64,000 bases of DNA from Paralichthys olivaceus (taxonomy: Eukaryota; Chordata; Actinopteri; Pleuronectiformes; Paralichthyidae). Shown here piece by piece: positions 3,528 to 64,000 of the stretch. Below the pieces are notes generated by a model. The model was not told where the DNA came from and did not search any database. It worked only from the letters and a program-made list of their open reading frames with translations. The stretch lies in assembly GCF_024713975.1 (NCBI RefSeq), contig NC_091113.1, positions 7,886,501 to 7,950,500 of the forward strand, read 5' to 3'. Position 1 is the stretch's first letter, and the number at the start of each line of letters is the position of its first letter. The position numbers and the translations under genes were made by a program.

Positions 3528-5605
3528 CTAGTACAGATGAGCTGCACTTCCTCCTTTGGGCCTTTCCTCACCCTTCCCCCTTTTTTTTGGCTTTTCCTCC
3601 GATTCCTTGCACAGGCCTTCCTCACTGGTCGCCTGCAGGCTGTCGAAGGTGCCCTGCCTCTCCATTCCCTGCAGGTTCTCTCCGTGCCTCCTGCACTTCC
3701 TCCACAGATCCACACAGTGCTCCAAGCAATTGAACCTGGCCTCTGTGGTGCAGGCGTACATGCCGGCCGGCACGGCCAGCACCATAGCGCACACGATGAC
3801 TATGATGTGAATGAGCCTCTCTCTCTGCTCCAGCTCGCTGATGTCACTTCCCGTCACAAACACGATGCACTGGCCTTCCCGGGGTGGATGGTTCTTCAGG
3901 GTCACACACACCTCGTACTTGGTGACGGGAAGCAGGTCGCTGACCGAGTAGCTGTTAATGCCGGGGCCGATGTAGATCGTCTCCTTTTTAGGTGTATCAT
4001 ATTTGCCGAAGTGGATGGTGAACCAGGTCTCAGCTGGGTTGTCTGTCGCCGCATACCACTCAAGGGTGATGCCGTACACTGTCTGCTTGGCGATGCGGAT
4101 GTCAATGAAGGCGTTGTCATCAGACGACAACATGGGGACAGATGGAGGAAGAGGAGCAGAGGAGTTGGAGGAGGGGATGTCGACCATGATGCTCACAGAG
4201 GAGTTGCCGATGAAGTTGTTGGCCGTGCAGGTGTAAAGGCCGCGGTCGGCCAGGTGAAGAGTTGGGATGACCAGCTGGGATGTGACGGTCTCTGCGTCTA
4301 TGTTATTCTCAATTACTGCAAAGAGAAAACAGAGCATCAGAGTCTACAGCATTTAATTCAGAGGCTTCTCTACACCTGATAAAGACATGGTAGGGTAATT
4401 AAAAAAAAAAAAAATAAAGCAGATTCAGCCTGAAGGTTCAAGATATCCCGCACTAAGTGCTCCAACAGCAGGTTCACAACTGTTTAATGGATGATAGTAA
4501 TAAAAAAGAATCTTACCAGAAAATCCTCTTTTAATCTTTAGACTGTACATCCACTGAATGGTCGGGCCTGGTCTGGCCTTGACTAAGCATGTAAGTGTTG
4601 CATTTGCTCCGAGAGGTAAAGTGATGTTAGTCTCTGGGGCAGAGGCCACGGGCTTCATGCAGGTTTTCAACTGGATCCCGTGGAAAAACTTGTCAGCCTC
4701 GGAGGCGGGGCCTGAGCACTGCAAATAAGAGTTCATTAGAATAAGGGGAGTGCTGATCGTCCTGATGAATTCAACAAAGCCTTTGAGGCGACAGTCGCAC
4801 AGCCAGGGGTTGTCATGCAACGCCAAAACCACATTCGAGACCAGCCCTTCTTTCCCCCATGCTTTCTCTGCTGCTTGGTAGAGAGGCCAGTTAATGAAGA
4901 CATCTTTTGATATGACGCTCAGCTGATTGAAGGATAAATCTAAATAGGTCAAGACAGGTAAGTTCCTCAGAGCGTGTTCAGGTAGGACGTCCAGTCGATT
5001 GTGCTTCAGGTCCAAAATCTTGAGTTTCGGAGTGTCCTGAAATGCTGTCCAGGGCACTGAAGTCAGCTTGTTCCCTTGTAGCCTCAGCTCCGTCAGGTTG
5101 GCGAGCCCCTCCAGGCTTTTAATGTTCATCAGGGTGATCTCATTGAAATTGAGCCAGAGGAACTCCAAGGCACTAACTTTAGAGAAAGATCCCTGTGGTA
5201 ACTCAGTCAGGTGGCAGTTTTCAATTCGGACTTTACTTAAATCGTGTGGGATATCCTCTGGGATGTGACCCATGGAGGTTTCCATACATAGTAAAGACCT
5301 AGGATGGTAAGACGGTATTTGTTAAGACGAGACATGCAAACAGAGAGAGTATTTTATCTCATGTTCACACATTAGCCCATATTTATGGATAGCATTTGTA
5401 GATGTTAGAACAATTTGGCTAGCATGTTACATTTAACACCCATGTCTAAACAAACACAACCTATAAGAGTTTGTATAGTTTCAGCAGTAACTCACCTTCC
5501 CAAGTTATCATCTGTGCAGGAGCAGCCAGTCAGACAACTGGATGATCCCGGGGCAATGAAATAAAATACCAAAGCGATGTGTAACGTGACATGAAATGCA
5601 TCCAT
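3528..5605 (-). CDS. lrit2: LRIT2: leucine-rich repeat, Ig-like and transmembrane domain protein 2
   Basis: Single-pass retinal membrane protein of the LRIT family. Minus-strand exons are 5496-5605, 4517-5298 and 3528-4315. Phases close to give 559 aa, close to the human protein, which also has three coding exons. Order: signal peptide (about 1-22), LRRNT cysteines ([12 protein letters not shown]-type), five or so LRRs (about 60-190), LRRCT (HDNPWLCDC from about 198 to 250). Next come a C2-type Ig domain (about 260-350, TLTCLV to GLYTCTANN, split by an intron), an FN3 domain (about 367-452), a transmembrane helix (about 466-485) and a basic, Lys/Glu-rich tail. The ATG at 5603-5605 directly heads the hydrophobic signal. 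LRIT2 rather than LRIT1 is chosen by position next to cdhr1 and by exon number. Confidence 0.9.
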
Positions 5606-21920: not shown

Positions 21921-21949
21921 GGAGCTGTCCACAGCCTCGTGGTGCTGAA
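21921..21949 (-). promoter_or_regulatory. Split RE1/NRSE (REST) site upstream of slc18a3
   Basis: On the reverse strand a perfect left half-site TTCAGCACC is followed after 10 nt by GGACAGCTCC, a right half-site with one mismatch. Canonical RE1 has 2 nt between the halves. Here the spacing is expanded by 8 nt, within the range reported for non-canonical expanded RE1 sites bound by REST. It lies 1.1 kb upstream of the slc18a3 ATG, where mammalian cholinergic loci also carry an RE1 upstream of the shared R exon. Confidence 0.55.
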
Positions 21950-23021: not shown

Positions 23022-24590
23022 ATGGATGGAGAGGGGAGATCCTCCGGGCTGGCGAAATCTGCCGCCATAAAACTGTCCGAGATGGGCGAGAGAACCAAGC
23101 GGTTAGGCACAGCGATGAAGGATCCTCACCAGCAGAGACGGATCATATTAGTGATTGTTTGCGTGGCTCTCCTGCTGGACAATATGCTCTACATGGTAAT
23201 CGTGCCAATTATCCCAGACTATCTCGCTGATCTGGAGAGTGAGCAGTCCGAGCACGTCCACTTAGTGATGCACCCCAACACTTCAGGCAACAGCACAAGC
23301 CAAGACAAAATCAACAAGGACAACTTAGACGTCCAGATAGGAGTGCTCTTTGCATCCAAAGCCATCCTGCAGCTCTTAGTCAACCCGCTGTCCGGGACTT
23401 TCATAGACCGGGTTGGATATGACATCCCACTTTTAATTGGCCTCAGTGTCATGTTCGTGTCCACCTGCATATTTGCGATTGGGGAGAACTACGCGACACT
23501 CTTCGTGGCCAGAAGTTTGCAGGGCCTGGGCTCTGCCTTCGCGGACACATCTGGGATCGCGATGATCGCAGACAAATACACGGAGGAGGCGGAGAGGAGC
23601 CGGGCGCTCGGCATCGCCCTGGCCTTCATCTCTTTCGGGAGCCTGGTGGCGCCTCCCTTCGGGGGCATCCTGTACGAGTTCGCGGGCAAGAAAGTGCCCT
23701 TCATCGTGCTCGCCTGCATTTGCCTGGCGGACGGCTTCCTGCTGCTCACCGTGATCAAGCCGTTCTCCAACAGGACTAGAGAGAACATGCCAGTCGGCAC
23801 CCCCATATACAAACTCATGATTGACCCGTACATAGCTGTGGTGGCCGGGGCGCTCACAGTGTGCAACATCCCCCTGGCCTTTCTGGAGCCCACCATATCC
23901 AACTGGATGGAGACCACCATGCACTCCTCTCAGTGGGAGATGGGAATCACCTGGCTCCCAGCCTTCTTCCCTCACGTCCTCGGTGTGTACATTACAGTTA
24001 AATTGGCCGCGAAGCATCCAAATCTGCAGTGGTTCTACGGAGCGTTGGGTATGGTTATCATAGGAGCCAGCTCCTGCACAGTCCCCGCATGCAAAACTTT
24101 TGGACAGCTCATCGCCCCGTTGTGCGGTATTTGTTTTGGCATCGCGCTCGTCGACACCGCGCTGCTGCCCACACTTGCGTTCCTGGTCGACGTGCGTCAT
24201 GTTTCGGTGTATGGTAGTGTTTACGCCATAGCAGATATTTCCTATTCTGTTGCTTATGCTATGGGTCCTATAGTGGCCGGGCAGATAGTGCACAATCTCG
24301 GGTTTGTACAGCTCAATCTGGGCATGGGTCTCGTCAATGTGCTTTACGCACCAGCCTTGCTGCTGCTGCGCAACGTGTGCCAAATGAAACCGTCCTACTC
24401 AGAGCGAGATAACCTGTTAGAGGAGGCTCCGCAGGGGCTTTACGATACTATCAGGATGGAGGAGAGGAGGGCTAAGAAGAAGGGCTACAGTTCGGGAGGG
24501 AACTGCCTGCCAGTAGATGAAAATGGGTTTGATCCATTCGGAGCACAGCGGTCCTTGTCAGAAGAGTCGTCCGGTCCGGAGTACACTTAG
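23022..24590 (+). CDS. slc18a3: Vesicular acetylcholine transporter (VAChT)
   Basis: Proton/acetylcholine antiporter of synaptic vesicles (SLC18 family, major facilitator fold). One uninterrupted exon of 522 codons, as in all vertebrates, lying in the same orientation just upstream of chat. Twelve membrane segments can be followed. Key features: Asp53 in helix 1 (LLDNMLYM) and Asp405 in helix 10 ([16 protein letters not shown]), matching human D46 and D398 with a constant offset of seven. Also N-glycosylation sequons in the first luminal loop (NTSGNSTS, about 86-92), the MFS motif [14 protein letters not shown] after helix 2, and a cytoplasmic tail with the dileucine sorting motif SERDNLLEE (about 460-468). 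The start ATG has a good context (CACCATGG). Teleosts often keep two copies (a and b). Linkage to chat favours the chata-linked one. Confidence 0.97.
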
Positions 24591-26039: not shown

Positions 26040-26205
26040 TGCTTTTCCACTTTTAACGTGGAGCCGCAGCCTTATGGCGAAGCGCGCAGGGGAGCGAGGA
26101 GCAGCAGTCCAGCACAGGAGCGGAGCTTTACTCTAATATGGGATTTCAAGGCGTGTGTGGACGTGGCAGGCACATGCACACTTCTTTGGGCTCTACACCG
26201 ATCAG
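26040..26205 (+). other. chat: Candidate non-coding 5' exon of chat with two upstream reading frames
   Basis: GC-rich segment ending in a strong donor (ATCAG|GTAAGA, 26205/26206). It would splice to the acceptor GTGCAG at 26778, joining the exon that carries the chat ATG. It contains an ATG at 26074 opening a 20-codon frame that stops at 26136. A second ATG at 26138 would run across the splice and stop after RE-G-C in the next exon. The 5' end is unknown. Confidence 0.45.
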
Positions 26206-26853
26206 GTAAGACTCCTACTTTACTTCTTTCTCTCCTTTAAATGATAACAATGGAGATTTATTTGTTAAAACTTATCCACTGTGCGCAAAAGTCCACTTTT
26301 CCTCTCACATCGAATTTCTAAAGTGGTTTAATCGTTAATCACTTTGTTTGTTTTCAGCTGCTTTCAGTGACACCAACTTATATTCAGTTATACAGAATTA
26401 CACTTTTACATATATTCCTTTAAGTCATATTCTGACTGACAGAGTCTTTAGAAAATTCAACTTCAAGGAGAATAAGTAAAAACCTTTTCCTTTTATTTTA
26501 TTTCTTTTAATGAAAACACAATTTTGGACACTGAAATATTTATTAATGTTTAAGAGATACTGTGTCTGTGGTTGTGAGCGACGAGACGCAGCCGGAATTC
26601 AAGGACACAAGCAGCCAATTGCATTAGGCTGCCAAATGATAAAGAATGGATGCGTGCGTGGCTCAACATCAGACAGCACCGCTTATAGCTCCATGTTTCC
26701 AGGCCTGATTTCATCCACCATGTTTTCTTTTTTTTTACTGTTTTCTAATAATCGAATGTCTTCACGTGCTTCGTGCAGGGAAGGCTGCTGAACTCGAACC
26801 ACCTACTGAGGGTTTCCACTTTATTTCCCCCCTGAGCGGAGTAGAATGCAAAG

Positions 26854-29800
26854 ATGCCAATCCTGCAGAAAGAGACGGCCAGAGACCGAGAGGACCAAGT
26901 ATGAAAACATGTCACTGACTATATCCTGGATCAGTTTTTTCTGCTGCTCATCATCCTCCACATTAAGATGCCCTGCTGAGAGCTGTCGCTGTCCGCGGTG
27001 CTGAAGTTCACAAACAAGCGCTGCTGGGTTTCAGCACCAGGGACAGCGCCACCTTCAATTACATAATTGGCCGCTAGGGGCGAAAATTGCACAGCAGGCT
27101 CTTCATCCACCAGAGTTTGGAAACCTTCGTCCCTTTATTTATTTTATGGTGCAGTTATTTGATAAACTCGGAGGCAGTTGAGATTTATATTACACTGTTG
27201 TTGCATTATCAGTATTCTGGTTTAACTGTGTCTGAAAACAATTTGTGGGGTTTTGTTTCTTCCAGGTTACATTTTATGTATCATTGCAGATATTTCAAGT
27301 GATTACTACACGGTCCTCATTTCCAGGAATCCACAGCTACATATTGTACTTATTGTACACTTCCAATGTTCTGATCAATATTAACATCTTAGTTTTACAA
27401 CTGTATCCAGCACACAAATGATCAAACACCACACACATATTAAAATGAATTAGCATTCTTCCCATGAGGCTGTGGAATCTATTCTCAAACAGGCCTTAGA
27501 GGTTTTAGGATTAATTATTAACTCTGCTTCTAATAATAAAAGCGTAAAAGAAAAGATGTGAGGGATTTCTTACTTTAACGAGGGGCATATTTAATGCTAA
27601 ACTGCTGCTGTCCTTTCATTACTCCGTATGTGTATTTATGCCACTCGACATCAGGGGCTGCCAAAGGTCCCAGTGCCCCCGCTGAAACAAACCCTGGACA
27701 CGTACCTGAGGTGCGTCCAGCACCTGGTGAAGGAGGAGCAGTTCAAGAGAACGAAGGCCATGGTGGAGAAGTTCGGGGCCCCTGGGGGAGTCGGAGACCA
27801 GCTCCAGAAGAAGCTTTTAGAGAGGAGGGACAAAACGACCAACTGGGTAAATTGTCACATCTACACCACAGAAGAGACGCTGCTGCTGTTTGCCTTTGCA
27901 GAAAAAAACACAAATGTATGCCTAAATCAATTAAGATATTTGAAGTGGTAATATATGTTGCTGTGAAAGACTCAAACAATGCAATATATTGAATTTGATA
28001 TTTTACTATATCAGCTTTTGTTATTCTGCCAAAACAAAGTATCGGATTCCTCTGTTCTACTGAAAATAAAAACAAGCTCAGATTTAGTCTCCTATATAAG
28101 ATTCCTATACATCATCCATTCATTTATAAGAGAGTGGAAAACAGTGAACAACCTGGGGACAAAGATTTATCAGAGCCTCTGCTCGTCCTCTGTCGCTTCA
28201 ATCTCTGCTCGTGCGTCTGGGTGATCGGTGAGTGCACATCTCATCCAGCTCAGTGAAATCTATCACACTCCCACACTCACAATGACGATCTCTATCACTC
28301 TCTCTCTCATCTGGCATTGATACACTCTAATGGTTTTTTGTTTTTGTTTGTTTGTTTGTTTCTTACTCTGTTGCCCACAGGGCTCCACTTTAGTGGTAAT
28401 AACTTGAGTCCAAAACGTTAAAAGAAGAAACATCTCTTAAATTGCGTCCCTGTGCTTTTGTTATCCAGGTCTATGACTACTGGCTGGAGGACATGTACCT
28501 GAACAACAGGTTGGCTCTGCCGGTCAACTCCAGCCCTGTCATGGTGTTTCCCAAGCAGACGTTCAGAGATCAGAAAGATGCCCTCAGGTACGTGCTGCAC
28601 TTCAGACAATCAAATATTTGCATGTAGCGAGTTATTTATTCACCCTCCTTTGTCAGACACTGAAGGTCTCTGAGATTCAGACTCTGTAGGTCAATGAAAG
28701 AATCGATCAAACTGTTTCCAAACATCACTGTAAGACAACATGTTCCATGTTATCGAGTTTGACAGAAAATCATCATCATCAAATAGGGAGAGTCCTTCAT
28801 GTGGGGCAATAGGCCAGAACACAAAAGTTATTTTTTTCACTGACAATTAATCTTACAATTAATTAATAATTAATTGATTGATTGGCAAAAAAAAAAAAAA
28901 ACAACACTGAAATTCCAATCATTAAGTTGATCGACTAATCTCTTCATCGCCGCTGGACACATCTCATTCTCTAATATATCTGTTGCTCTGTGAGAAACAG
29001 CATTTAAAACCACTTCTTTGAATTAGGACATTTCAGTGAGGTACATAAATGGAGCATGTGGCACCGAAACAGTGACTGAAATCAGACTATGTGATGGTCA
29101 CTTTGACAAATGTAAAATCAGGTTCACAGGACTGAACGTTACACATCATCACTAATGATAGAAAATCTACATGTTGTTCAGATCTGTAGCTGCTGACACG
29201 GTCTATGTTCTTCTCAGACACAGACTCAGATTAAGATCTGAATTACAGACATGGAAAGAATCACCGGCATCATCTCTCTGCCAAATCTCTGCCCGTTATT
29301 AAATGAGTGGTCAACCAGACATTACACCAGTCCATCCAGCCCTATAACTCAACATTAGCTTTTGTCAGCTTGTGCCGCACTAACTGAATATTTCCAGAGC
29401 CCCCCGAGCGGCTGGTAATCTACTGACACGGCCACTTATTAGATTGGGAGTGATGAGGCCAAGCTCTCCGCAGTGACTGCTAGTCAGGCCTCGTTTTGGG
29501 GTGTGGTGCGCTGCGGCCGCCTCTTTGTATTGATCTAGCTTTGAACGTAATAACAACAAGACGAATGACATACAGCACAAGATCTGACAGGGCTCTGTGT
29601 TTCCCTATTTGCCCGCACCTCCCACTCACACAGAGAGACTGCCTCTCTTTCGCCAACACAGGAAACACACACACAGCCAATCACTGTATCCAAGTAATTT
29701 GCCTTAATGTGATTACTGTTGAGATGAGAGAGCGTCTATTTGTAATCACCAGCCTGTCTGCTGTATGTTCAGTGATACAGCAAACTTCTTTTAAGTTTGT

Positions 29801-51090: not shown

Positions 51091-63805
<12,715 letters not shown>

Positions 63806-64000
63806 CTTGGAGAGAGCGAGAGATCTGTTTGTTGTTTTGCCATAAAACTCAGCTGTGACATTATTAGCTGTTTGGACTAAGAAGTTGGATATGGACGGAT
63901 ACAATTTACAGCTGTGGTCCCCTTTAAAAATGTTTGAATAGTATCTAACATTATACAGAATAAGAAGTATTAAGGAAATATAAGCAATGCATAATATTAG

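Follow-up and report, generated by a model that had tools for sequence, protein, structure and literature searches.

A pair of near-consensus RE1 (NRSE) sites in what is predicted to be the first coding intron of chat probably forms a double RE1 silencer of a fish cholinergic locus, to which a split RE1 upstream of slc18a3 would contribute; this reading is drawn from the sequence. The pair lies in what we here call the window, a stretch of 64,000 nucleotides (C21:7886501-7950500) in a genome of 588,085,608 bases and 25 contigs. Site A occupies 26985..27005 on the minus strand and reads TTCAGCACCGCGGACAGCGAC, with 1 mismatch to the consensus TTCAGCACCNNGGACAGCGCC. Site B, at 27030..27050 on the plus strand, reads TTCAGCACCAGGGACAGCGCC and has 0 mismatches to TTCAGCACCNNGGACAGCGCC at all 19 specified positions. 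Both belong to the canonical RE1/NRSE, i.e., the 21-bp motif with half-sites 2 bp apart. The gap between the two 21-mers is 24 bp and the whole pair fits into 66 bp; the 16-base core TCAGCACCNNGGACAG is free of mismatches in either site, and the cores lie 26 bp apart. By either distance the sites form a paired RE1, for which two full sites should be no more than about 30 bp apart.

Sites A and B are the sole matches to TTCAGCACCNNGGACAGCGCC at up to 3 mismatches in the 64-kb window, and the next best matches to the core TCAGCACCNNGGACAG, two in number, have 2 mismatches each. In a matrix scan of the window the pair scored 30.9 and 30.6 of a maximum of 34.4, followed by 22.3 for the third-best and 16.8 for the fourth score; the matrix is a small one, made from 15 published RE1 sites, and not that of JASPAR. 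The initial annotation had placed two RE1 motifs on opposite strands, 24 bp apart, and both 21-mers were indeed found there; the matrix scan agrees with it. Its count of two and one mismatches becomes 1 and 0 here, a number that depends on the consensus adopted at the two free spacer bases. Two lesser RE1-like sites may be mentioned in passing: TTCAGGACCTTGGAGAGAGCG at 63798-63818 (+), with 4 mismatches the third best in the window, and a site with 5 mismatches at 5041-5061 (-), which lies within a leucine-rich-repeat frame and is probably due to chance.

The pair matches the motif far beyond chance, and the early claim that such a coincidence is very unlikely is borne out. Two or more sites at up to 3 mismatches occurred in 0 of 100 dinucleotide shuffles of the window (mean 0.01). 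Simulated second-order Markov sequence of 64 Mb contained no site at up to 2 mismatches and 3 sites at up to 3, which corresponds to 0.003 per 64 kb. The analytic rate for one site with at most 1 mismatch is 9e-6 per 64 kb, if the halves are treated as independent. A prokaryotic genome collection, described as holding 257 billion bases, was used only as a source of a chance rate; REST is not known from prokaryotes. It contained exact RE1 matches in 44 stretches, one in each, or about 1e-5 per 64 kb. In 20 control 10-kb stretches of the fish genome, a small sample, there was neither a canonical RE1 at up to 4 mismatches nor a split one (gaps 3-20, up to 2 mismatches).

The left halves of sites A and B face each other, and the pair, read from its strands, is therefore divergent; the initial annotation had called it convergent, which has to be corrected. 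An inverted duplication was considered as its origin and rejected: outside the 21-mers the flanks of the two sites are identical at only 14/30 and 11/30 positions and thus bear no trace of a recent duplication. A repeat search of 26200-27660 returned the RE1 arms and otherwise only short pairs. The pair may have originated from a mobile element.

An inverted repeat could, of course, also act as RNA. A hairpin of the two RE1s in the intron would then affect splicing or yield a small dsRNA, which we consider very improbable. The fold predicted for the sense strand has -38.9 kcal/mol (z -3.1, with 1 of 200 shuffles as good), that of the antisense strand -41.4 (z -2.95, 2 of 200), and a small dsRNA that matches RE1 is described for neural stem cells in a review (PMC12839409). 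Any opposite-strand couple of RE1s would, however, fold likewise, and the hairpin is therefore no independent evidence. Moreover, the arms hardly exceed the motifs (25 nt, 84% complementary), and no Rfam match at gathering score was found between 21 and 29 kb. More far-fetched still is an extension of this idea, in which the RE1 hairpin of the chat pre-mRNA would be cut to small dsRNA in neurons that start to use chat and would relieve REST elsewhere, a positive feedback. If true, the inverted pair would be a place in the genome from which the small RE1 RNA reported for neural stem cells could derive.

The surrounding genes can be outlined as follows. A single-exon coding sequence at 23022..24590 (+), 522 aa long with an MFS_1 match, is presumably slc18a3 (VAChT), a name that we base on its position before chat and on similarity; a search of viral contigs revealed no relatives. 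A possible 5' non-coding exon of chat at 26060..26205 (+), proposed from the letters with a guessed start, is followed by a clear donor (CAG/GTAAGA at 26205/26206). The predicted first coding exon, 26854..26898 (+), encodes 15 residues; GTATGA follows directly upon its end at 26898, with the donor GT at 26899. The likewise predicted first coding intron, 26899..27654 (+), contains the RE1 pair, site A starting 86 bp past the predicted end of the exon. CAG precedes the second coding exon at 27655..27846 (+), and the two coding exons join in phase. The second exon (query 27655-27849) matches residues 12-76 of the choline O-acetyltransferase chain 2fy2, a human protein, with an E value of 4.7e-27, and Carn_acyltransf matches were obtained in frames at 27.6, 31.4-31.8 and 33.0-33.4 kb. 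In the PDB search, the alignments shown begin at query residue 9 or 12. The ATG exon is a prediction based on its frame, on the splice sites and on the similarity to a start exon of a paralogue, translated by eye. As for the location in chat intron 1, as initially annotated, the exon that follows has the ChAT match, but the coding exon before the intron is a predicted one. Seen from the other landmarks, the pair lies 2.4 kb downstream of the end of slc18a3 and 0.8 kb past the putative 5' exon of chat. The stretch between slc18a3 and chat exon 2 contains no simple EBF or CTCF pattern. Downstream of chat and on the opposite strand, a frame at 51366-51785 (-) with a below-cut-off PARG_cat_C match (21.6 vs 26.3 bits) may belong to parg.

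The position within chat invites another explanation, namely that the pair is part of a cholinergic Isl1-Lhx enhancer and serves chiefly to gate it. We regard this as unlikely. The Isl1-Lhx3 peak described for mouse Chat is situated in the intron that follows VAChT (PMC3998908), and the homeodomain-like cores TAATTG at 27056 (-) and TAATTGG at 27064 (+) adjoin site B (27056-27070). Yet the exact mouse core TAATTGGATTA is absent from the window, its matches at up to 2 mismatches number 32, where chance alone predicts 29.7, and the nearest one upstream, at 26616, has 2 mismatches. AANCNNATTA, our own reading of two published oligos, is absent between slc18a3 and chat exon 2. An Isl1-Lhx3 hexamer response element near the pair was therefore discarded as a candidate: there is no full element, and the near matches do not exceed chance.

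The initial annotation had put the strongest sites after the chat start codon. This is correct for the strongest canonical ones, but a split RE1 is also present upstream of slc18a3. It occupies 21921..21949 on the minus strand, 1072 bp upstream of the slc18a3 ATG, and reads TTCAGCACC-ACGAGGCTGT-GGACAGCTCC. With both halves in normal order and orientation and a gap of 10 bases instead of 2, it is an altered-gap RE1. A half-site scan of the window, with a total of at most 2 mismatches and the halves no more than 60 bp apart, yielded this as the one further pair in normal order beyond sites A and B. By chance, half-site pairs with gaps of 3-10 and up to 1 mismatch are expected at 7e-5 per 64 kb analytically and at 0.001 by simulation, the latter value derived from 1 event in 64 Mb. 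PMC4055426 counts halves parted by an insertion of 1-10 bases as non-canonical RE1, and sites with an 11-bp gap gave EMSA shifts in PMC8096226. In the human reporter screen of PMC9903721, silencing by gapped RE1 motifs is reported with 8- or 9-bp spacers only, which counts against the 10-base split RE1.

The same genome contains a second slc18a3/chat locus (L055, G000:C14:14360001-14370000), which we infer to be the partner from the teleost duplication. Its slc18a3 is 76.7% identical to that of the window over 519 aa, its chat 66% over 65 aa, and a start exon similar to the predicted chat exon 1 can be read in it by eye. The split RE1 recurs there on the same strand, 964 bp upstream of the predicted slc18a3 ATG and again with a spacer of 10, outside the 8 or 9 of the human screen (PMC9903721). 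The half-sites of the two copies are identical at 19/19 bases, including a T that departs from the consensus in both, while the spacer agrees at 4/10. Between the two 2-kb upstream regions the split RE1 is the best ungapped 29-base match on the same strand (23/29), and the only other 29-base matches of at least 22 are one-base shifts of it.

Canonical sites, in contrast, are not shared. None was found at up to 4 mismatches in the 10 kb of L055, nor at up to 5 in its chat intron; the only 5-mismatch match in these 10 kb lies inside the slc18a3 coding sequence, and 20 kb of flanks contained one more. A chat copy can therefore do without the pair. The element common to both copies is the upstream split RE1, which for this reason is probably the older one, and the intron pair has either arisen in the window copy or disappeared from the L055 copy. 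Ten other loci matched the start of the Carn_acyltransf model; 4 with a match from position 1 were examined and 6 were left out, and a further slc18a3/chat copy may be among these 6. Of the 4, L053, L054 and L056 lack an slc18a3 match and were put aside as probable carnitine acyltransferases. They contain no canonical RE1 at up to 4 mismatches; L056 has one with 5.

The absence from the paralogous intron could be taken to mean that the pair is a fossil or a chance match to which REST does not bind in vivo. This we rate as quite improbable. The chance expectation for one such site does not exceed about 1e-5 per 64 kb, and two sites that stayed intact amid diverged flanks (14/30, 11/30), at a locus known as a REST target, speak for maintenance. 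Among human data, furthermore, 347 of 350 REST-bound canonical motifs are reported to have recurred in 19 of 23 experiments (PMC11025195).

The double silencer, our preferred reading, would probably work as follows. In cells that make REST, such as non-neuronal cells and progenitors, each 21-bp site would be occupied by one REST molecule in its own orientation; this is expected because neighbouring NRSEs were bound by two REST molecules in EMSA (PMC8096226). The two molecules would bring co-repressors to the promoter region of chat and probably to slc18a3, with the split RE1 upstream of slc18a3 contributing from the other side. When REST drops in differentiating neurons, both genes would be opened to cholinergic activators.

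Published work lends support to several of these steps. Human CHAT is among the 15 literature REST targets listed in PMC4055426, all of them bound in at least 14 of 16 human cell types, and silencing of its counterpart outside neurons is therefore expected. The early proposal of REST control remains the likeliest one, near-consensus sites being found in the counterpart of a known target; what lacks support is a control exerted only after the chat start. PMC4055426 also reports that more REST peaks go along with lower expression in 16 of 16 human cell types, significantly so in 15, and that genes bound in their body were expressed below promoter-bound ones in 11 of the 16. A synthetic element tested in zebrafish, with two RE1 cores at a distance of 27 bp upstream of a basal promoter, gave neuron-only expression in 26.4% of embryos, the top value among the constructs described (PMC3531662). 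Knock-down of rest shifted expression in 3 of 10 lines, consistent with de-repression, and the authors cite greatest occupancy for genes in which two sites are no more than 30 bp apart (PMC3531662). A counter-example comes from the same paper: the pair failed to suppress a UAS-E1b promoter, be it upstream or in a downstream intron (data not shown there). This speaks against a pair placed in an intron, although a promoter driven by Gal4 makes for an unusual test.

A variant compatible with the preferred explanation is a division of labour, in which the intron pair controls chat alone and slc18a3 is controlled by its own split RE1. It is a possibility to be taken seriously, if not the one that we would favour. 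Either element is close to the gene that it would control, with the pair 0.8 kb past the putative 5' exon of chat and the split RE1 1.07 kb ahead of the slc18a3 ATG; also, the split RE1 accompanies slc18a3 in both copies, which the pair does not do with both chats. REST silencing can, however, extend over kilobases. The nested layout, moreover, is taken in PMC3998908 as suggesting co-regulation of both genes.

Paired RE1s, intragenic RE1s and REST control of CHAT have all been published before. A search limited to one library of open-access papers found none that joins chat, slc18a3, REST, zebrafish and RE1. What the double silencer with its upstream split RE1 offers is a testable layout of how REST may silence, outside neurons, the two nested fish genes that serve to make and store acetylcholine. 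The two duplicate loci are a kind of natural experiment: they share the RE1 with the 10-base gap, only one has the strong intron pair, and REST dependence is therefore directly comparable between them.

The closest known system is the cholinergic locus of mammals, CHAT/SLC18A3, for which an RE1/NRSE was reportedly described by Lonnerberg in 1996 and by Shimojo and Hersh in 2004. Nested genes, repressor motif and expected outcome are alike. The known mammalian RE1 is situated upstream of the R exon, whereas in the fish the strongest sites are the two divergent ones of the first coding intron, and the site upstream is split by a 10-base spacer. Closely spaced RE1s are also seen in the zebrafish REx2, with 27 bp between cores (PMC3531662) as against 26 bp between the 16-base cores here, and in the neighbouring NRSEs of CELSR3/PCDH (PMC8096226). 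Both of these are tandem, while ours diverge. KCC2 has, like the present locus, two RE1s for one neuronal gene (PMC7730145); there the transcription start site lies between the two, whereas here a single intron holds both within 66 bp. The split site resembles the altered-gap non-canonical RE1 (PMC9903721, PMC11025195, PMC4055426) in that its halves keep normal order and orientation, with 8 bases added to the canonical 2. Its gap of 10 differs from the 8 and 9 that alone silenced in the human screen (PMC9903721), and its presence in both copies bears on the question of which RE1 gap lengths work in vivo. The place in a first intron, finally, is shared with the RE1 of EPHA10, a validated short-range regulator of that gene about 500 bp downstream of a promoter (PMC9903721); that is one validated human site, whereas the fish locus has two predicted ones.
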